A stretch of DNA of 64,000 nt. It comes from Pseudomonas sp. R5-89-07. GTDB lineage: Bacteria > Pseudomonadota > Gammaproteobacteria > Pseudomonadales > Pseudomonadaceae. Every line of letters begins with the position of its first letter. Position 1 is the first letter of the stretch. The stretch spans positions 2,604,001-2,668,000 of the forward strand of contig NZ_CP027727.1 in the NCBI RefSeq assembly GCF_003851685.1. Reading direction: 5' to 3'. The notes below the pieces were generated by a model, which was not told where the DNA came from, did no database searches, and saw only the letters and a program-made list of their open reading frames with translations. Made by a program: the position numbers and the translations under genes. This document shows positions 10,218 through 62,950 of this stretch, one piece after another.

Positions 10218-11508
10218 ATACAACTTCAATCCGCCGCCGACTCGACGCGTGGCGATCATCGGCGGCAACCGTCTGCCGTTTGCGCGATCCAACACCGCCT
10301 ATGCGCACGACAGCAATCAGGACTTACTGGTGGCCGCACTCCAAGGGCTGGTGGATCGCTACAACCTGCACGGTCAGTGCCTGGGTGAATTCGTCGCCGG
10401 CGCGGTGATCAAGCATTCGCGCGATTTCAACCTGGCCCGTGAATCACTGCTGTCGACCACATTGTCCGCGCAGACGCCGGCCTACGATGTGCAGCAAGCT
10501 TGCGGCACGGGCCTGGAAGCGGCGTTGCTGGTGGCCAATAAAATCGCCCTCGGCCAGATCGAGGTAGGCATCGCGGGTGGCGCGGACACCACTTCCGACG
10601 CGCCGATTGGCATCAATGAATCGTTGCGTCACACCTTGCTCGCGGCCAATCGGGCCAAGGGCATGGGCGACAAGCTGAAAAGCTTGCTGAAGGTGCGCCC
10701 GTCGATGTTCTTCAAGCCGCTGCTGCCGCGCAACGGCGAACCCCGCACCGGCCTGTCGATGGGCGAGCACTGTGAAGAAATGGCCAAGCGCTGGCACATC
10801 AAGCGCCTGGCCCAGGATGAGCTGACCCTGTGCAGTCATCAACGCCTCGACGCGGCTTACCAGCGCGGCTTCTTCGACGACCTGATCAGCCCCCATCGCG
10901 GCCTGGCCCGTGATAACAACCTGCGCAGCGATATCAGCCTGGAAAAACTCGCCAGCCTGGCGCCGGCGTTCGACCGCCAGAACGGCACGCTCACCGCCGG
11001 CAACTCAACGCCCCTGACCGACGGCGCCTCGGTGGTGCTGCTGGCCAGCGAAGCCTGGGCCGCCGCCAGTGGCTGGCCAGTGCTGGCCTACCTGCGCACC
11101 GGCGAAACGGCGGCGGTGAATTTTGTCGACGGCACCGAAGGCCTGTTGATGGCGCCGGCCTACGCCGTACCGCGCATGCTCAAGCGCGAAGGCCTGGGCC
11201 TGGCCGACTTTGATTTCTTCGAGATCCACGAAGCCTTCGCCGCCCAGGTGCTGTGCACACTCAAGGCCTGGGAAGACCCGGACTACTGCCGCGAGCGGCT
11301 TGGCCTGGACGCACCGTTGGGCGCCATCGACCGCACGAAAATGAACGTCAACGGCGGCTCGCTCGGCTGCGGTCATCCGTTTGCCGCCACGGGCGGCCGG
11401 CAACTGGCGGCATTGGCCAAGGCGATCCATGAGCGTGGCGGCGGTCGCGGCTTGATCTCCATCTGTGCGGCGGGCGGGCTGGGTATTACCGCCATCGTCG
11501 AAAAGTAG
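10210..11508 (+). CDS. acetyl-CoA C-acyltransferase (thiolase, FadI-like)
   Basis: This 432-residue thiolase cleaves 3-oxoacyl-CoA with CoA to give acetyl-CoA and a shortened acyl-CoA. The active-site cysteine is in VQQACGTGLEAAL near residue 98, the histidine motif is FEIHEAFAAQ, and the second cysteine is in GGSLGCGHPFAATGGRQ near the C-terminus. Length agrees with FadI-like thiolases (about 430). It overlaps the MaoC gene by 8 bases and is followed by the acyl-CoA ligase gene after 31 bases. Confidence 0.9.
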   Translation: MSEYNFNPPPTRRVAIIGGNRLPFARSNTAYAHDSNQDLLVAALQGLVDRYNLHGQCLGEFVAGAVIKHSRDFNLARESLLSTTLSAQTPAYDVQQACGTGLEAALLVANKIALGQIEVGIAGGADTTSDAPIGINESLRHTLLAANRAKGMGDKLKSLLKVRPSMFFKPLLPRNGEPRTGLSMGEHCEEMAKRWHIKRLAQDELTLCSHQRLDAAYQRGFFDDLISPHRGLARDNNLRSDISLEKLASLAPAFDRQNGTLTAGNSTPLTDGASVVLLASEAWAAASGWPVLAYLRTGETAAVNFVDGTEGLLMAPAYAVPRMLKREGLGLADFDFFEIHEAFAAQVLCTLKAWEDPDYCRERLGLDAPLGAIDRTKMNVNGGSLGCGHPFAATGGRQLAALAKAIHERGGGRGLISICAAGGLGITAIVEK

Positions 11509-11539
11509 CCCAAACCACAACAACAATAAGGACACTGCC

Positions 11540-13243
11540 ATGAACGCCATCAGCCTGGAACACAGCGAACGCATCTGGTTGAACGCCTACCTGCCCGGCG
11601 TGCCGGCGGACATCGATGCCGCTATCGAAGATTACCCTTCGTTGCGCGAAGTGTTCCTGGAGCACCTGGAGAAATTTCGCGAGCGGGTGGCGTATGTCAG
11701 CATCGGCACATCCATGACCTACGCAGACTGGCAGGTTCAGGGCAACGCCTTTGCCGCCTGGCTGCAGGGCCAGGGCGTGAAGAAGGGCGACCGCGTCGCG
11801 CTGATGATGCCTAATTGCTTGCAGTACCCCATCTGCCTGTTGGGCACGATCCTGGCCGGCGCGGTGGTGGTCAATGTCAACCCGCTGTACACCGCCCATG
11901 AACTCAAGCACCTGCTCAAGGACAGCGGCGCCGAGACCGTGGTGATCTTCGAAAACTTCGCCCACACCTTGGAAAAAGTCATCGTTGGCAGCAGCGTCAA
12001 GCGCGTGGTGGTGGCGGCCATCGGCGACTTGCTCGGCACCTTCAAGGGCGCGGCGATGAACTTCATCCTGCGCAGCGTGCAGAAGCAGGTGCCGGCCTTC
12101 AGGCTGCCCGGCGCGGTACGCTTCAACCAGGTGCTCAGGCAGGGGCGGGCGCTCACTTATCTGCCGGTCAGCCTGAACCGCGATGAACTGGCCTTCCTGC
12201 AATACACCGGCGGTACCACCGGCGATGCCAAGGGCGTGATGCTCAGCCATCGCAATATCATTGCCAACCTGTTGCAAGCCAAGGCCTGGGTCGGTGACCA
12301 ACTGGACCAGGACCAGCAGGAGACCAACGTCACCTTGCTGCCGCTGTACCACATCTTTTCCCTCACGGTGAACTGCCTGATGTTCATGTGCCTGGGCGGA
12401 CGCAATATCCTGATCGCCAACCCACGGGACGTGAAGCGGGTGCAGATGATCCTGCGCAAGGAGCGCTTCAACGGCATTGCCGGGGTCAACACGCTGTTCA
12501 ACGGTTTGCTGGAGAACAAGGAATTCTGCGCGCGGGACTTTTCCGACCTGCGCATGGTGATCGCCGGCGGCATGGCCACGCACACGGCGGTGGCCAAGCG
12601 CTGGAAGGAAGTCACCGGGTTGCCGATCATCGAGGGTTACGGGCTGACCGAGTGTTCACCGGTGGTGAGCATCAGCCCCATCGACATCAGCCGGATGCGC
12701 GAGATGGAATTCACCGGCAGCATCGGCGTGCCGTTGCCGTCGACCTGGGTGCGCTTCGTGCGTGAAGACGGCGAAATGGCCGAGGTCGGCGAGCAGGGCG
12801 AGCTGCAAGTGCGCGGTCCGCAAGTGATGCAGGGCTACTGGAAACGCCCCAGGGAAACCGCCGAAGTGCTGGACGCCGAGGGCTGGCTGTCGACCGGTGA
12901 TATCGGGGTGATGGATGAGCGTGGGTATATCCGGCTGGTGGACCGCAAGAAGGACATGATCCTGGTCTCGGGCTTCAACGTGTACCCGAATGAAATCGAG
13001 GATGTGGTGGCGATGCATCCCGGTGTGGCGGAAGTGGCGGCGATTGGCGTGGAAGATGGCGTGACCGGCGAGAGGGTCAAGATCATCGTGGTGCGCAAGG
13101 ACCCGAGCCTGACCCAGGCGCAGATTCTCGCCCATTGCCGGGAGTATCTGACCGGCTACAAGGTGCCGCGATACGTGGAGTTCCGCACCACTGAGTTGCC
13201 CAAAACCACGGTAGGCAAAGTGCTGCGCCGCGCCTTGCGCTAA
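11540..13243 (+). CDS. long-chain fatty acid-CoA ligase (AMP-binding)
   Basis: This 567-residue ligase activates fatty acids, here probably those made by alkane oxidation, to acyl-CoA with ATP. The P-loop motif is QYTGGTTGDAKGVMLSH, the A5 motif GYGLTECSPVVS, the A7 motif STGDIG and the A10 region PKTTVGKVLRR. It resembles FadD by length and motifs. The ATG at 11540 is chosen because AAGGA lies just before it; a longer in-frame reading would overlap the thiolase gene. The leader has an AACAACAATAAG run over the ribosome site, a candidate Hfq/Crc target. It closes the alkane and beta-oxidation group and is followed by a REPIN. Confidence 0.92.
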   Translation: MNAISLEHSERIWLNAYLPGVPADIDAAIEDYPSLREVFLEHLEKFRERVAYVSIGTSMTYADWQVQGNAFAAWLQGQGVKKGDRVALMMPNCLQYPICLLGTILAGAVVVNVNPLYTAHELKHLLKDSGAETVVIFENFAHTLEKVIVGSSVKRVVVAAIGDLLGTFKGAAMNFILRSVQKQVPAFRLPGAVRFNQVLRQGRALTYLPVSLNRDELAFLQYTGGTTGDAKGVMLSHRNIIANLLQAKAWVGDQLDQDQQETNVTLLPLYHIFSLTVNCLMFMCLGGRNILIANPRDVKRVQMILRKERFNGIAGVNTLFNGLLENKEFCARDFSDLRMVIAGGMATHTAVAKRWKEVTGLPIIEGYGLTECSPVVSISPIDISRMREMEFTGSIGVPLPSTWVRFVREDGEMAEVGEQGELQVRGPQVMQGYWKRPRETAEVLDAEGWLSTGDIGVMDERGYIRLVDRKKDMILVSGFNVYPNEIEDVVAMHPGVAEVAAIGVEDGVTGERVKIIVVRKDPSLTQAQILAHCREYLTGYKVPRYVEFRTTELPKTTVGKVLRRALR

Positions 13244-13357: not shown

Positions 13358-14473
13358 TTAGACTGAGTTCACATTGACCCAGCGATCTTGCTGAGCGGCG
13401 TGGCGAATCGCCGTCGCCAGCCGCTCTACCGCCCACGCCGCCTCGAAATCAGTGCCATGCGCACCTTGCCCCGCCAGCGCCATGATCAATTCCTGAACCT
13501 CCAGCGTCTTCAACTCGTTGTACCCCAACTGATGGCCCGCCGCCGGGCTGAACGCGGCGTAACCGGGCAGGGCAGGGCCGGCGAGCAGGCGCTGGAAGCC
13601 GTCCTGGCCGACGCGGCACAGGCGCAGTTCGTTCAAGCGCTCCTGATCGAACGCCAGGGTGCCCAGGGTGCCGCTGATTTCAAAACTCAGGTGGTTCTTG
13701 TAGCCATGCTTGAGCCAACTGCTGCTCACCGTGCCGCGCGCGCCATTGGCAAAACGCAACAGGGCGTGGACCTGATCATCCACGGCGATGGCCTTCAGTT
13801 CTTGGCTGCTTTTCAGGGCCGGCCGTTGCGCGTGGACGGTCTGGGTGTCGGCACACACGCTCACCACGTCGCCCATCAGGTAATGGGCCATCGACAGCAA
13901 ATGGCTGCCCAGGTCGGCCAGCGCGCCGCCAGCGTGTTCCACCTCGCAACGCCACGACCAGGGCGAGGCCGGATCGGCCATGAAGTCTTCGCTGAACTCG
14001 CCCTGGAAACTGATGATCTGGCCAAGCTCGCCACTGGCAATCATCTGCCGCGCCAGCACGATCATCGGGTTGTGCTGGTAGTTGTAGCCCACGCGTGTGA
14101 CTACCCCGGCTGCACTGGCGGCGCGACGCATGGCATCGGCCTGTTCCAGGCTGACGGCCAGCGGCTTCTCGCAATACACCGCCTTGCCGGCCGCAATCGC
14201 CGCCATGGCCATGGGGTAGTGCAGGTGGTTGGGGGTGGTGATGGCCACGACATCGACCGTGGGATCCTCGATCAATGCCTGCCAGTCGGCATGGGCCTGG
14301 GCAAACCCCCAGGCGCTGGCACAACGTTGCGCGCGCTCGGTGTCCGCATCGGCCAGCGCCGCCAGCTTGAGCGTGACAGGCAGTTCGAACACCGCCCTGG
14401 CATTGTTGAACGCCAGCGCGTGGGCGCGCCCCATGAAGCCTGTGCCGATCAAGCCGATTCCGAGTTCACGCAT
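13358..14473 (-). CDS. Gfo/Idh/MocA-family oxidoreductase, probably inositol-linked
   Basis: This 371-residue NAD(P)-dependent sugar or polyol dehydrogenase has an N-terminal Rossmann motif GLIGTGFMGRAHA, then ALADAD, TTPNHLHYPMA, and the family's EKPLAVS with the catalytic-site lysine, followed by the C-terminal beta-sheet domain with GGALADLGSHLL. The ATG at 14473 is preceded by AAAGGA; a start 20 codons earlier would include the operator. Two operator-like sites 29 bases apart lie upstream and match those between the iol regulator and iolC at 59.9 kb. This makes an inositol or inosose dehydrogenase the best guess, an inference from the operator, not from the protein alone. Confidence 0.85.
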   Translation of the reverse strand: MRELGIGLIGTGFMGRAHALAFNNARAVFELPVTLKLAALADADTERAQRCASAWGFAQAHADWQALIEDPTVDVVAITTPNHLHYPMAMAAIAAGKAVYCEKPLAVSLEQADAMRRAASAAGVVTRVGYNYQHNPMIVLARQMIASGELGQIISFQGEFSEDFMADPASPWSWRCEVEHAGGALADLGSHLLSMAHYLMGDVVSVCADTQTVHAQRPALKSSQELKAIAVDDQVHALLRFANGARGTVSSSWLKHGYKNHLSFEISGTLGTLAFDQERLNELRLCRVGQDGFQRLLAGPALPGYAAFSPAAGHQLGYNELKTLEVQELIMALAGQGAHGTDFEAAWAVERLATAIRHAAQQDRWVNVNSV

Positions 14474-14515: not shown

Positions 14516-14560
14516 TGGAATAAATATTCGCAAAATTCAATAGATAGAATAAAAATTCAC
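14516..14560. promoter_or_regulatory. paired IolR/RpiR-type operator upstream of the oxidoreductase
   Basis: Two related sites, TGGAATAAATATTCGC (14516-14531) and TAGAATAAAAATTCAC (14545-14560), begin exactly 29 bases apart. They fit GGAA-N6-TTCC, the form known for RpiR-type inositol repressors. The 14474-14833 gap holds these sites and the repeat at 14578, and the leader of the YCF48-like gene. Nothing else is recognised in it. Confidence 0.6.
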
Positions 14561-14629: not shown

Positions 14630-14833
14630 TACCACCATCATTTCAGCTGATGCAGCTATATTCAGCCTGTGGCCAAACGCCGCCAGTTAACAAAAGATAA
14701 CGTAGCGCTGATTGTCAGACGATTCCAAAGCCCGATAGGATGGCCCGTGCTTGCCTCAGGCGCTCTAGATTGCAGGTTTCAGAGCCCCGCGCAAAGCACC
14801 GCGACCTAACAATAATAAATGGGAGAAAGGTCT

Positions 14834-15889
14834 ATGAGTGAGCCTGTCATGGGTTGGGTTGTTTGCCGCCCACGCGCCGCACGCACGCTTGCGTTGCTGG
14901 CCACAGCGCTCTCGCTGCTTGGAGGCGTCGCGTTACCCGGCGTCGCCCAGGCCGCCAGCGATACCCCCGCCGCGGCGGTGTTTGCAATCCAATCCCCCAA
15001 GGCCGCCAGAGGCCTGATGATCGACGTGGTCCACGCCGGCCAGCGCCTGGTGGCGGTGGGTGATCGCGGTCACATCCTCTATTCCGATGACCAGGGCAGC
15101 ACCTGGACCCAAGCCAAAGTGCCCACCCGGCAACTGCTCACGGCGGTGTTTTTCGTCGATGCCAAGCACGGTTGGGCAGTCGGCCATGATGCGCAGATCC
15201 TGGCCAGCAGCGACGGTGGCGCCAACTGGACCCAGCAGTACCAGGACCTCAAGCGCGAAGCGCCCTTGCTCGACCTGTGGTTCAACGACGCCAATCACGG
15301 TCTGGCCGTGGGCGCCTACGGTGCGCTGATCGAGACCAACGACGGCGGCAAGACCTGGGAAGACGTCAGCGAGCGCCTCGACAACGAAGACCAGTTCCAC
15401 CTCAACGCCATCGCCTCCGTCAAGGACGCCGGCCTGTTTATCGTCGGCGAGCAGGGCAGCATGTTCCGCTCCAGCGATGACGGCCAGACCTGGGAAAAAC
15501 TCGAAGGTCCCTACGAGGGCTCGTTGTTTGGCGTGATTGGCACCGCTCAGCCGAACACCCTGTTGGCCTACGGCCTGCGCGGCAACCTTTACCGCTCCAC
15601 CGATTTTGGCAGCACCTGGGAGCAGGTGCAGTTGAATGCGGCCCGTGGCGCCCTCGAATTCGGCCTGTCGGGCGCGACCCTGCTGGAGGACGGTTCCATC
15701 GTCGTGGTGGGCAATGGCGGCAGCGTGGTGGTCAGCCATGACGACGGCCAGAGCTTCAGCGTATTCAACCGCCCGGACCGTATTTCGCTGTCGGCGGTGA
15801 CGGCGGCAGGCAATGGAAATCTGATTCTGGCCGGACAGGGTGGTGTTCGCGTCGCCATGCCCACTGGCGCAGAACCGATAAAACAATAA
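14834..15889 (+). CDS. YCF48/Hcf136-like beta-propeller protein, exported
   Basis: This 351-residue protein has a long signal region (hydrophobic segment near residues 20-40, cut near AQAA) and then repeated BNR-type blades such as SDDQGSTW, SSDGGANW, TNDGGKTW, SSDDGQTW and STDFGSTW. It resembles the YCF48/Hcf136 propellers, which help assemble membrane complexes in photosynthetic organisms. In non-photosynthetic bacteria the family commonly sits beside an RND exporter, as here (15 bases to the next gene). The ATG at 14834 follows GGGAGAAAGG; the ATG at 14819 overlaps that site and is rejected. It may help assemble or serve the exporter, but this is inference. Confidence 0.8.
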   Translation: MSEPVMGWVVCRPRAARTLALLATALSLLGGVALPGVAQAASDTPAAAVFAIQSPKAARGLMIDVVHAGQRLVAVGDRGHILYSDDQGSTWTQAKVPTRQLLTAVFFVDAKHGWAVGHDAQILASSDGGANWTQQYQDLKREAPLLDLWFNDANHGLAVGAYGALIETNDGGKTWEDVSERLDNEDQFHLNAIASVKDAGLFIVGEQGSMFRSSDDGQTWEKLEGPYEGSLFGVIGTAQPNTLLAYGLRGNLYRSTDFGSTWEQVQLNAARGALEFGLSGATLLEDGSIVVVGNGGSVVVSHDDGQSFSVFNRPDRISLSAVTAAGNGNLILAGQGGVRVAMPTGAEPIKQ

Positions 15890-58848: not shown

Positions 58849-59757
58849 TCAGTCGTCAAACCCAACCTGCTCGTGAATCTCATCCACCTTCAGCTCCAAC
58901 CGATACGCCACCGCAATGAACAACGCCTGGCACAGGCACAAGGTCGCGCTCAACGAGCGGAAGGCAAACGACGACCCCTCATTGACCAACAACACCGCGT
59001 TGGCCCGCTTGGCCAACGGCGACAAGTTACTGTCGGTGATGATCAGCGTTTTAGCCTGGTGATGCTGGGCGATGCGCAGGCAGTGTTGGGTCTCTTTGCC
59101 GTAGGGCGTGAAGCTGATGGCGATCACCAAGTCATTGGCGCGCACGCTGCGCATCTGTTCGCGGTAGCTGCCGCCCAGGCCGGAGATCAGGTGAATGCGC
59201 TTGTTGGTGTGCTGCAGGTTGTACACCAGGTAGTCGGCCACCGCGAACGAGCGGCGTACGCCGACCACGTAGATATTGTCGGCATTCACTACCAGGTCCA
59301 CGGCCTTGTCGAAGGCCACGTCGTCGAGCTCCATGCCCAGGCGCTCAATGCCGGACAACGTCGCGTTGACGCACTCGCGCGCCAGGTCGCCGCCGCTGGC
59401 CTTTTGCGACTTATTGGCGATCATGCTGCGGATGCGCTGCTGGTAGTTCTGCACCGGCGTGGTCTTGTGGGTATACGCCTCGCGAAACAGCGCCTGCATC
59501 TCACTGAACCCGCTGAAGCCGAAACGCTGGGAGAAGCGCACGATGGCCGAAGGGTGCACTTCGCATTCCCGGGCGATATCGCTGATACGGTCGACCATGA
59601 TGCGGTCGCTCTGCTGGCTCATGTAACTGGCGATGCGCTTGAGTTGGCGCGGCAGGCTTTCGTATTCGTCGGTGATCAGCTGCAACAGGCGTTCGGCATT
59701 GATCGGAGGGCTGGCGATTGTATCTTCCAGGTTGGTCTCGGGATCGGTGCGGGACAT
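58849..59757 (-). CDS. iolR: RpiR-family regulator of the inositol cluster
   Basis: This 302-residue regulator has an N-terminal helix-turn-helix (MSQQSDRIMVDRISDIARECEVHPSAIVRFSQRFGFSGFSEMQALF, seen as ECEVHPSAIVRFSQRFGF) and a C-terminal SIS sugar-binding domain (GVRRSFAVADYLVYNL, VIAISFTPYGKETQHC). It lies divergent from iolC, with two operator-like sites in between, which fits an RpiR-type inositol repressor. The ATG at 59757 is preceded by AAGGA; the longer in-frame reading starts inside the intergenic region. The name iolR is by position and family. Confidence 0.85.
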   Translation of the reverse strand: MSRTDPETNLEDTIASPPINAERLLQLITDEYESLPRQLKRIASYMSQQSDRIMVDRISDIARECEVHPSAIVRFSQRFGFSGFSEMQALFREAYTHKTTPVQNYQQRIRSMIANKSQKASGGDLARECVNATLSGIERLGMELDDVAFDKAVDLVVNADNIYVVGVRRSFAVADYLVYNLQHTNKRIHLISGLGGSYREQMRSVRANDLVIAISFTPYGKETQHCLRIAQHHQAKTLIITDSNLSPLAKRANAVLLVNEGSSFAFRSLSATLCLCQALFIAVAYRLELKVDEIHEQVGFDD

Positions 59758-59902
59758 GGGCAATCCTTCTGGCGTGTTCGTCTGGTGCGCTGATGGGTGG
59801 CGCAAGTCTACAGGGTAGGCGCAAAAAAATACCTCGGCATCACGGCCCGCGTGGGCTGCTGAAACGATGCACGCCGGCTGCCGCAACATTATGACGGCTT
59901 AT

Positions 59903-59947
59903 TGGAAAAAATATTCCACTAAAAATAATTATGGAATAAATATTGAT
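59903..59947. promoter_or_regulatory. paired RpiR-type operator between iolR and iolC
   Basis: TGGAAAAAATATTCCA (59903-59918, perfect five-base arms) and TGGAATAAATATTGAT (59932-59947) start exactly 29 bases apart, fitting GGAA-N6-TTCC. The same pair, at the same spacing, occurs upstream of the oxidoreductase gene at 14516-14560. Expected to be bound by the divergent RpiR-family protein. Confidence 0.7.
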
Positions 59948-60041
59948 TGCCGCCGCCGGACGTTCTAGTCTGCTCCCACCAAGAGCGTTTGCCGTCGTCA
60001 TGGCGGCACAGCGCAGGCTGATAAAAATAACAGGAGCCAGC

Positions 60042-61979
60042 ATGGGCCAGACTCGTTTTGCCAGTGGGCGTCAATTGGATCTGATTTGCCTCGGGCGCCT
60101 GGGCGTCGACCTCTATGCGCAGCAAGTAGGCGCGCGGCTTGAGGACGTGTCCAGCTTTGCCAAATACCTCGGCGGTTCCTCCGCCAATATCGCCTTCGGC
60201 ACCGCGCGGCTGGGGCTCAAGTCGGCGATGCTCAGCCGTGTGGGCGACGACCACATGGGCCGCTTTCTCGTGGAATCCCTGGCCCGTGAAGGCTGCGACG
60301 TCAGCGCGATCAAGGTTGACTCGGAGCGCCTCACCGCCCTGGTGCTGCTCGGCCTCAAGGACCGCGAAACCTTCCCCCTGGTGTTCTACCGCGAAAACTG
60401 CGCCGACATGGCCTTGCGCGCCGAGGACATCAGCGAAGCTTTCATTGCTTCCAGTAAAGCGCTGCTGATCACCGGCACCCATTTCTCCACCGATGGCGTG
60501 TACAAGGCCAGCCTCCAGGCGCTGGATTACGCCGCCAGGCACAACGTCAAACGCGTGCTCGACATCGATTACCGCCCCGTACTATGGGGCCTGGCCGGCA
60601 AGGCGGACGGCGAAACCCGCTTCGTTGCCGACCAGAACGTCAGCCAGCATGTGCAGAAGATCCTGCCGCGTTTCGACCTGATCGTCGGCACCGAAGAAGA
60701 GTTCTTGATCGCCGGTGGCAGTGAAGACCTGCTCGGCGCGTTGCGTACCGTGCGCGAACTGACCCCGGCGACCCTGGTAGTCAAGCTCGGCCCGCAAGGC
60801 TGCACGGTGATCCACGGCGCCATTCCACAGCGCCTGGAAGACGGTGCGATCTACCCCGGCGTGCTCGTGGAAGTGCTCAATGTGCTGGGCGCCGGCGATG
60901 CCTTTATGTCGGGCTTTCTCAGTGGTTGGCTCAATGACGCCACTGATGAACGCTGCAGCCAGTTGGCCAATGCCTGCGGCGGCCTGGTGGTGTCGCGTCA
61001 CGCCTGCGCACCGGCCATGCCGACACCCGCCGAGTTGGAGTACCTGTTCAGCAGCCCGGTACCGATCACCCGGCCGGACCAGGACGCAACCCTGCAACGC
61101 CTGCACCGCGTCAGCGTGCCGCGCAAAACCTGGAAGCAGCTGTTCGTGTTCGCCTTCGACCATCGCTGGCAATTGGTGGACCTGGCGCAGAAAGGTGGCC
61201 AGGACTTGGCGCGCATCAGTGATGCCAAACAATTGTTTATCCAGGCCATCGAACGCGTCGAGAAGAAACTGGCTGATCAAGGCGTAGAAGCCGACGTCGG
61301 CCTGCTCGCCGACCAGCGCTTCGGTCAGGACGCGCTCAATGCGGCCAGCGGCCGCGGCTGGTGGATCGCCCGCCCGGTGGAAGTACAGAACGCGCGGCCG
61401 TTGGCGTTCGAACACGGTCGCTCGATCGGCAGCAACCTGATCGCTTGGCCTCAGGAACAGATCATCAAGTGCCTGGTGCAATTTCATCCCGATGACGAAC
61501 CGCTGCTGCGCCTGGAACAGGAAGCGCAACTCAAGGCGGTGTACGAGGCCTCGATCGTCAGCGGCCACGAACTGCTGCTGGAAGTGATCCCGCCCAAGGA
61601 TCACCCCTCAACCCACCCGGACGTGCTCTACCGCAGCCTCAAGCGCCTGTACAACCTGGGCATCTACCCGGCCTGGTGGAAGATCGAGGCGCAATCGGCC
61701 GAGGACTGGAAAAAGCTCGACGAACTGATCCAGGAGCGCGATCCGTACTGCCGCGGCGTGGTGCTGTTGGGGTTGAATGCGTCGGCCGAATGCCTCGCGG
61801 ACGGTTTCCAGCAAGCCAGCCAGAGTACGACGTGCCGAGGGTTTGCCGTAGGCCGCACGATCTTCCAGGAACCGAGCCGCGCGTGGATGGCGGGGGAGAT
61901 TGATGATGAGACCCTAATCCAGCGCGTCCAGGCCACCTTCGAACAGCTTATTACCGCCTGGCGCAGCGCCCGAAATTAA
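60042..61979 (+). CDS. iolC: 5-dehydro-2-deoxygluconokinase fused to DUF2090 aldolase-like domain
   Basis: This 645-residue two-domain protein joins an N-terminal PfkB-type kinase (LGGSSANIAFGTARLG near residue 40-55, AGDAFMSGFLSGW near 285-297 with the catalytic aspartate) to a C-terminal DUF2090 domain from about residue 355 (LFVFAFDHRWQLVDLAQKG). The kinase phosphorylates 5-dehydro-2-deoxygluconate in myo-inositol catabolism; the second domain resembles the aldolase step that cleaves the product, usually IolJ. The ATG at 60042 follows CAGGAG. It is the first gene of the plus-strand cluster. Confidence 0.9.
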   Translation: MGQTRFASGRQLDLICLGRLGVDLYAQQVGARLEDVSSFAKYLGGSSANIAFGTARLGLKSAMLSRVGDDHMGRFLVESLAREGCDVSAIKVDSERLTALVLLGLKDRETFPLVFYRENCADMALRAEDISEAFIASSKALLITGTHFSTDGVYKASLQALDYAARHNVKRVLDIDYRPVLWGLAGKADGETRFVADQNVSQHVQKILPRFDLIVGTEEEFLIAGGSEDLLGALRTVRELTPATLVVKLGPQGCTVIHGAIPQRLEDGAIYPGVLVEVLNVLGAGDAFMSGFLSGWLNDATDERCSQLANACGGLVVSRHACAPAMPTPAELEYLFSSPVPITRPDQDATLQRLHRVSVPRKTWKQLFVFAFDHRWQLVDLAQKGGQDLARISDAKQLFIQAIERVEKKLADQGVEADVGLLADQRFGQDALNAASGRGWWIARPVEVQNARPLAFEHGRSIGSNLIAWPQEQIIKCLVQFHPDDEPLLRLEQEAQLKAVYEASIVSGHELLLEVIPPKDHPSTHPDVLYRSLKRLYNLGIYPAWWKIEAQSAEDWKKLDELIQERDPYCRGVVLLGLNASAECLADGFQQASQSTTCRGFAVGRTIFQEPSRAWMAGEIDDETLIQRVQATFEQLITAWRSARN

Positions 61980-62017: not shown

Positions 62018-62062
62018 TAAAGCAGATTTTCAGTGTTAGTTGAAAACAATAAAGGTGCAGCC

Positions 62063-62950
62063 ATGCCCGCAATCCGAATTGGCATCAACCCGATCTCCTG
62101 GAGCAACGACGACCTGCCGGCCCTGGGCGGTGAAACGCCGCTGAGTACGGCCTTGAGCGAAGGCAAGGAGATCGGCTACGAAGGTTTTGAACTCAACGGC
62201 AAATTCCCCAAGGACGCCAAAGGCGTCGGCGACGTGCTGCGGCCCTACGATCTGGCGCTGGTCTCCGGCTGGTATTCCAGCCGCCTGGCGCGTCGTTCGG
62301 TGGCCGAAGAAATCGACGCCATCGCCGGCCACGTCGAGTTGCTCAAGCAGAACGGCGCAACCGTGCTGGTGTACGGCGAAGTCGCCGATTCGATCCAGGG
62401 TTCGCGCATCCGTTTGATCGAACGCCCACGCTTTCACAGCGAGCAGGCGTGGCAGGCGTATGCCGACAAACTCACTGAGCTGGCGCGTTTCACCCTGTCC
62501 CAGGGCGTACGCCTGGCCTACCACCACCACATGGGCGCCTATGTCGAGTCCCCCGAGGATATCGACCAACTGATGAAACGCACCGGCCCGGAAGTCGGCC
62601 TGTTGTTCGACTCGGGCCACTGCTACATGGGCGGCGGCGAACCCCTTGAGGTGCTGCGCAAACACATCGGGCGCATCTGCCACGTGCATTTCAAGGACGT
62701 GCGCAAGCCTGTGGTGCAACTGGCGCGCAACCAGATGTGGAGCTTTCCTGACTGCATCGTCAACGGCACCTTCACCGTACCCGGCGATGGCGACATCGAT
62801 TTTGCCGAGCTGCTCGATGTGCTGGTGGCCGCCAATTATGAGGGCTGGCTGGTGGTCGAGGCCGAGCAGGACCCGGCCGTGGCGCCCAGTTATGTTTATG
62901 CGAAGAAGGGCTATGACACCTTGCGTGCGCTGCTCAACGAGAGGACTTAA
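62063..62950 (+). CDS. iolE: myo-inosose-2 dehydratase
   Basis: This 295-residue TIM-barrel enzyme converts 2-keto-myo-inositol to 3D-trihydroxycyclohexane-dione, the second step of inositol catabolism. It begins with RIGINPISWSNDDLPALGG and has the metal-site segments EGFELNGKFP, YHHHMGAYVES, LFDSGHCYMGGG and CHVHFKDVRKP. The ATG at 62063 follows AAAGG within an AAAACAATAAAGG leader run. It ends two bases before iolB. Confidence 0.93.
   Translation: MPAIRIGINPISWSNDDLPALGGETPLSTALSEGKEIGYEGFELNGKFPKDAKGVGDVLRPYDLALVSGWYSSRLARRSVAEEIDAIAGHVELLKQNGATVLVYGEVADSIQGSRIRLIERPRFHSEQAWQAYADKLTELARFTLSQGVRLAYHHHMGAYVESPEDIDQLMKRTGPEVGLLFDSGHCYMGGGEPLEVLRKHIGRICHVHFKDVRKPVVQLARNQMWSFPDCIVNGTFTVPGDGDIDFAELLDVLVAANYEGWLVVEAEQDPAVAPSYVYAKKGYDTLRALLNERT

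Follow-up and report, generated by a model that had tools for sequence, protein, structure and literature searches.

The closest described systems to the one reported here are bacterial inositol regulons under IolR, known to us from the accessible parts of the cited sources. In Caulobacter crescentus and other alphaproteobacteria, IolR palindromes lie before iolC and before the ibpA-iatA-iatP transporter, as they do in the Pseudomonas genome analysed here (PMC2597717). Caulobacter idhA also carries a GGAA-N6-TTCC palindrome, the target genes occupy non-contiguous loci and the iolC promoter contains two motifs of this form, the last two traits being shared with Pseudomonas (PMC2597717). Mutation of motif 1 raises iolC expression, and mutation of motif 2 has no effect in rich medium (PMC2597717). 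The two systems differ in that about 59 bp separate the Caulobacter iolC motifs, whereas the Pseudomonas sites are AT-rich and spaced 28-29 bp, and in that the Pseudomonas regulon includes a further dehydrogenase as a predicted target (PMC2597717). The word Pseudomonas is absent from the main text of the Caulobacter paper. In Salmonella, at least two IolR sites are present in most iol promoters, again as here; the two sites are of unequal affinity, and oligomer binding has been proposed (PMC5349611). Neither 'palindrom' nor 'spaced' appears in its main text, and a comparable spacing rule is absent from the accessible portion. The model cited for S. meliloti has IolR released by DKGP, a keto-sugar phosphate (PMC8877191).

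Two further systems bear on the dehydrogenase itself. Bacillus subtilis IolX is an inositol-induced scyllo-inositol dehydrogenase under a repressor, as we predict for the gene described below; its repressor is IolQ, whereas the pathway's own RpiR-type IolR is the predicted one in Pseudomonas (PMC5504672). The iol cluster of P. extremaustralis resembles ours in comprising iolR, iolC/J, E, B, D, G1, G2 and ibpA/iatA/iatP; the accessible part of that report names only two iolG copies, and a distant dehydrogenase and an operator are absent from it (PMC11065229). A mutant-fitness study of 11 bacteria covers myo-inositol and IolC-DUF2090 fusions and, in the part available, does not name our gene (PMC9007349). 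Across the accessible portions of the open-licence literature on IolR, inositol dehydrogenases and PQQ inositol dehydrogenase, we found neither this gene under IolR nor paired operators of this kind in Pseudomonas.

The window, that is, the whole stretch of 64,000 nucleotides analysed (G000:C1:2604001-2668000), belongs to a 6.0-Mb genome in a single contig. It contains a dehydrogenase gene, here called ox, and the start of an inositol cluster. The relevant features are as follows.

13358..14473, minus strand: ox, a Gfo/Idh/MocA dehydrogenase of 371 aa resembling Pl-scyllo-IDH (open reading frame and domains)
14516..14531, minus strand: candidate operator site proximal to ox, TGGAATAAATATTCGC on the plus strand (direct reading, pair scan, matrix)
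14535..14540, minus strand: TTGAAT in the DNA separating the ox sites, a possible -35 element
14545..14560, minus strand: candidate operator site distal to ox, TAGAATAAAAATTCAC on the plus strand, 29 bp from the proximal one (direct reading, pair scan, matrix)
58849..59757, minus strand: iolR, an RpiR-family regulator of 302 aa with HTH_6 and SIS domains
59903..59918, plus strand: first candidate operator site of the iolR-iolC intergenic region, TGGAAAAAATATTCCA (direct reading, matrix)
59932..59947, plus strand: second candidate iolR-iolC operator site, TGGAATAAATATTGAT, 29 bp from the first (direct reading, pair scan, matrix)
59943..59971, plus strand: possible iolC promoter TTGATT-N17-TAGTCT, proposed by eye and overlapping the second iol site
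60042..61979, plus strand: iolC fused to a DUF2090 aldolase domain
62033..62950, plus strand: iolE, myo-inosose-2 dehydratase

The iolR gene is opposite in orientation to iolC-DUF2090 and iolE. Beyond the window, iolE is followed by iolB, iolD, an IolG gene scoring 574 bits against a model cut-off of 540, a second Gfo/Idh/MocA gene and a sugar-type ABC transporter. A third pair of sites precedes this transporter 4.7 kb beyond the window (L092:9715, TAGAATAAAATTCTA, and 9743, TGGAAATTATTTTCCA), spaced 28 bp start to start. A chemotaxis receptor gene lies after the transporter (L092 14600-16282). The neighbours of ox are a FadD-like acyl-CoA ligase (11465-13243) and a YCF48-like protein (14819-15889); since both are unrelated and lie on the opposite strand, ox appears to be monocistronic.

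An earlier sequence-only reading had placed four operator-like sites at 14516, 14545, 59903 and 59932, with the two sites of each pair starting exactly 29 bp apart. Direct reading confirmed all four positions and both spacings, and the best copies, 14516 and 59932, have 13 bases in common, TGGAATAAATATT. The consensus offered with them was too strict, and not every site fits it. The left half of site 14545 is AGAA where the consensus has GGAA, the right half of site 59932 is TTGA where it has TTCC, and AWAAWA does not hold for the middle six bases of every site. The strict pattern GGAANWWWWWNTTC, whose spacing is one base too long, has no match in the window.

We then scored sites with a weight matrix derived exclusively from iolR-iolC sites, taken at 30 loci and amounting to 5 distinct 16-mers plus their complements. 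Both ox sites, with scores of 17.90 and 15.65 (the latter for 14545), came third and fourth out of the 63,985 positions scored in the window, preceded only by the iol pair itself; the top position in 20 first-order Markov windows reached 15.46, below either of them. A lone IolR-like site, TAAAAAAATTATTTCA, lies at 723-738 of the window, upstream of an open reading frame at 810-2162, and scores 15.56 against 15.65 for 14545. Across the genome, single-site matches with up to 2 mismatches numbered 54, compared to 32 in the control, and five other single GGAAWWWWWWTTC places had no second site at 29 bp, as judged by eye in about 45-60 flanking bases on each side. Single sites are weak evidence; the signal is carried by the pair and its conservation. 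With no mismatches, the fixed-spacing pair pattern matches exactly two places in the 6.0-Mb genome, ox and iolR-iolC. The next-best pair-like place (1927510) has 2 mismatches, and the reversed-pattern control gave 1 forward match at up to 3 mismatches.

The ox pair is conserved in orthologues. We scanned the best 80 of 227 confirmed ox loci, one of which (L085) had no upstream DNA, leaving 79; spacing was taken from the two top-scoring matrix positions inside 110 bp, the sole assumption being that they lie at least 14 bp apart. It was 29 bp in 76 orthologues, 28 bp in two and 34 bp, with a weak second site, in one. The proximal site was centred 48-52 bp upstream of the start codon in 77 of the 79, and by eye the DNA flanking the pair drifts while the pair is kept. 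At 30 iolR loci, the iol pair was spaced 29 bp in 28 and 28 bp in two. These data bear on whether both pairs could be chance AT-rich palindromes in intergenic DNA. The motifs are short, intergenic stretches are AT-rich and position 723 scores nearly as high as 14545; against this, the exact pair is found at just two places in 6 Mb and is spaced 28-29 bp in 78 of 79 orthologues. Chance was rejected on the conservation of the pair and on the genome-wide pair scan, and we give it practically no weight.

We also read by eye 13 ox upstream regions from genomes without the pattern pair at ox. Six, all from genomes at a greater distance, had one strong site alone (G020, G068, G085, G152, G182 and G184), five had a good proximal and a degenerate distal site (G023, G051, G132, G196 and G198), and the remaining two (G008 and G149) had no visible operator in the 150 bp before ox.

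A TTG is found a few bases before the proximal ox site in 78 of 79 orthologues. If this TTG in the spacer is a -35 element, the proximal site would cover the ox promoter; we regard that promoter as putative, because a sigma-70 consensus scan of the ox upstream DNA reported none. At iolC, the consensus scan likewise did not report the promoter at 59943..59971 and gave a different site, 59902-59929; the diverged loci L209 and L210 contain a comparable TTGATT-N17-TAGCCT.

The distribution of ox follows that of the inositol pathway. In a sample of 199 Pseudomonas genomes (ox and IolR orthologues cut at E below 1e-150, iolC at E of at most 1e-50), ox was present in 91 and IolR in 104: both occurred in 91 genomes, IolR alone in 13, ox alone in none and neither in 95. 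The latter include a genome that carries two IolR fragments only (G034). Compared with iolC, ox was detected in 91 of 93 positive genomes, the exceptions being G037 and G129, and in none of 106 negative ones; the iolC match of G051, an assembly with 9% contamination, is a 106-residue piece. The Fisher test of this co-occurrence ignores relatedness among genomes, and its value overstates independence because the genomes are related. Twelve of the 13 genomes with IolR alone lack iolC, and the other, G037, has iolC without ox. Outside the genus, 184 other genomes from the class sample yielded no ox-like protein at E 1e-90, and a 'near'-mode search of a plasmid collection found no plasmid copies.

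The IolR homologue of the twelve iolC-less genomes (G011, G019, G033, G036, G055, G062, G074, G097, G098, G111, G150 and G162; loci L205-L208 and L213) is 82-85% identical to IolR. Four upstream regions read near it lacked an operator of this kind, and scanning whole genomes for single sites yielded 1-mismatch places only. This looks like an IolR that has been orphaned or put to another use; the G019 copy has a chemotaxis receptor gene nearby.

With up to 1 mismatch, the 29-bp pair was retrieved in 79 of the 199 genomes, every one with iolR and ox. Forward pair places totalled 153, compared to 2 in the reversed control (summed by hand); 152 of them had positions and were classified by hand. 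Of these, 73 were at ox (counting overlapping registers in G058 and G160 and two places beside incomplete ox copies in G169), 64 between iolR and iolC, and 12 at the transporter promoter, 144-431 bp before the binding-protein match on the iolC contig. Only three lay elsewhere (G008, G048 and G186). The pair is not common at unrelated genes in this sample, which leaves the shared-operator claim standing: 149 of 152 places fall at these three kinds of promoter. In G169, the partial extra ox copies with operator pairs alongside are on contig C20 (6902-9968), and the full ox is on C14.

The same scan addresses the alternative that the sites belong to another regulator of AT-rich sites and resemble the iol operators by coincidence. 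Single sites are not rare, as the counts of 54 and 32 above indicate, and more distant RpiR proteins are also present in these genomes. However, the 95 genomes without an IolR orthologue contain neither ox nor, at up to 1 mismatch, a single 29-bp pair, and the pair is otherwise nearly confined to inositol promoters. We consider another regulator very improbable.

In some relatives, ox lies in or next to the inositol cluster. Its start is about 1 kb from that of iolR in four genomes (G047, G088, G105 and G167), 14 kb in G008 and 19 kb in G149; in the other 23 same-contig cases listed, which are part of all, the starts are 28 kb to 819 kb apart. G008 and G149 hold the two most diverged ox proteins, 65 and 68% identical. 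In both, ox is located behind the transporter permease of the iol cluster, within about 150 bp and on the same strand, and the iol pair is also present, with a spacing of about 28 bp by eye. An ox gene inside the cluster and without an operator fits an origin, or there an ending, in the inositol operon; apart from that operon, ox would need operators of its own. The regulator shared between ox and the inositol genes, which the sequence-only reading had proposed, is supported by the conservation of the pair, the co-occurrence of ox, iolR and iolC, the specificity of the pair and the position of ox in these relatives.

The closest solved chains to ox are 5ya8 and 6ktj, both of Pl-scyllo-IDH (E values of 7e-97 and 5.9e-96), followed by 4gqa, 4fb5 and 6a3f. 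The last of these, recorded as a 'putative dehydrogenase', we take to be levoglucosan dehydrogenase. Among NCBIfam models, the best for ox is levoglucosan dehydrogenase (NF052479), at 303 bits against a cut-off of 650, and the IolG models score 139.7 against 355 (TIGR04380) and 57.2 against 540 bits (NF052679); none of the three cut-offs is reached. According to the accessible part of its description, Pl-scyllo-IDH (LgdA, Paracoccus laeviglucosivorans), which is homologous to ox over the full length, uses K106, D191 and H195 in catalysis and contacts its substrate through Y135, Y163 and E165 (PMC5969746). R178, in a flexible loop, and H318, contributed by the neighbouring subunit, are special to that enzyme, which oxidises scyllo-inositol, with the lower Km, as well as myo-inositol and L-glucose (PMC5969746).

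We aligned 111 Pseudomonas sequences: the window's own protein, 79 and 29 orthologues (with possible overlap), and those of G008 and G149. The counterparts of the catalytic triad (K103, D187 and H191) are present in all 111, the lysine not being independent in 29, whose reading frames were chosen by the words EKPLA and GTGFMG. R175 and H314, corresponding to R178 and H318, and the counterpart of E165 are likewise kept in 111 of 111. Both tyrosines of a GYNY motif, either of which may correspond to Y135, are invariant (111/111). The Y163 contact is not kept, being F160 in every sequence, and because of this the substrate of ox may differ from that of the Paracoccus enzyme. Homology to a characterised scyllo-inositol dehydrogenase and retention of nearly its whole active-site set support the earlier designation of ox as an inositol-linked dehydrogenase.

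An IolR-regulated ox might instead act on something other than free inositol, such as L-glucose, a glycoside, an anhydrosugar or a similar inositol-derived or co-occurring compound. This would be in line with the levoglucosan dehydrogenase model as the best NCBIfam match, with the Y163-to-F change in all 111 sequences and with the use of L-glucose by the Paracoccus enzyme, as given in the part of the source available (PMC5969746). However, 6a3f has Q and L, by eye, at the positions of E165 and H318 of Pl-scyllo-IDH, both of which ox keeps, and ox accompanies iolC in 91 of the 93 genomes that have it. We regard a substrate other than free inositol as rather unlikely. Since the inositol cluster of this genome already has two Gfo/Idh/MocA genes, ox may also be redundant or use another isomer.

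Because the paired switch of the cluster is kept before ox in dozens of species, ox is very probably an extra inositol enzyme under IolR. As a whole, the reading we consider very likely is that of a monocistronic, IolR-repressed inositol dehydrogenase, probably acting on scyllo-inositol. Binding, repression, inducer and substrate are predicted here from sequence. In the absence of inositol, the RpiR-type IolR (58849-59757) would sit on the two GAA-N6-TTC sites covering the ox promoter, with the same occupancy at the iolR-iolC and transporter promoters, whose sites are also about 29 bp apart. An intermediate of inositol breakdown would release IolR, and the dehydrogenase would be made together with the pathway. 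Ox would then oxidise one of the inositols, most likely scyllo-inositol and next myo-inositol, and the resulting inosose would enter the IolE step. By analogy, the regulatory logic described for Caulobacter, Salmonella and S. meliloti would fit the ox pair. The second site need not matter, because mutation of one of the two Caulobacter iolC motifs had no effect, according to the accessible part of that source (PMC2597717).

At two of the three pair places elsewhere (G048 and G186), the promoter belongs to a periplasmic binding protein of sugar type, whose gene diverges from that of a PQQ membrane dehydrogenase.

L220 (G186) 2504-2544, L221 (G048) ~2456, and L226-L233: extra paired operator before the second binding protein

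Close orthologues of this second binding protein (72-100%) are present in 8 of 199 genomes; it is absent from the window's genome, where the best matches reach 49-53%. The operator pair is readable by eye before the gene in seven of the eight, in some with a degenerate half, and in the eighth (G149) the gene is inside the iol operon, behind a LamB-like porin. The PQQ dehydrogenase is found beside it at four of eight loci, which reach about 1.5 kb on either side. In G186, the operator place is near pqqF. The window's genome has a PQQ dehydrogenase paralogue (G000:C1:2357146-2359542), 61% identical to the one in G186, with one internal TAA that is also present in four of eleven other genomes searched. 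We offer only as a tentative possibility that fluorescent pseudomonads have a scattered IolR regulon, typically with two operators about 29 bp apart, to which some species add the second binding protein, in a part of these species divergent from the PQQ dehydrogenase. If true, a periplasmic route of inositol oxidation would exist beside the cytoplasmic one, with an IolR oligomer bridging both sites.

The addition of ox to the known RpiR-type IolR regulon is well supported and solid, and not surprising in kind. Through it, a gene present in 91 of 199 sampled Pseudomonas species gains a pathway, a predicted regulator and a probable substrate class. A simple operator rule, a pair of sites spaced 28-29 bp, picks out inositol genes that lie away from the cluster and is relevant to the use of plant and soil inositol by plant-associated pseudomonads.
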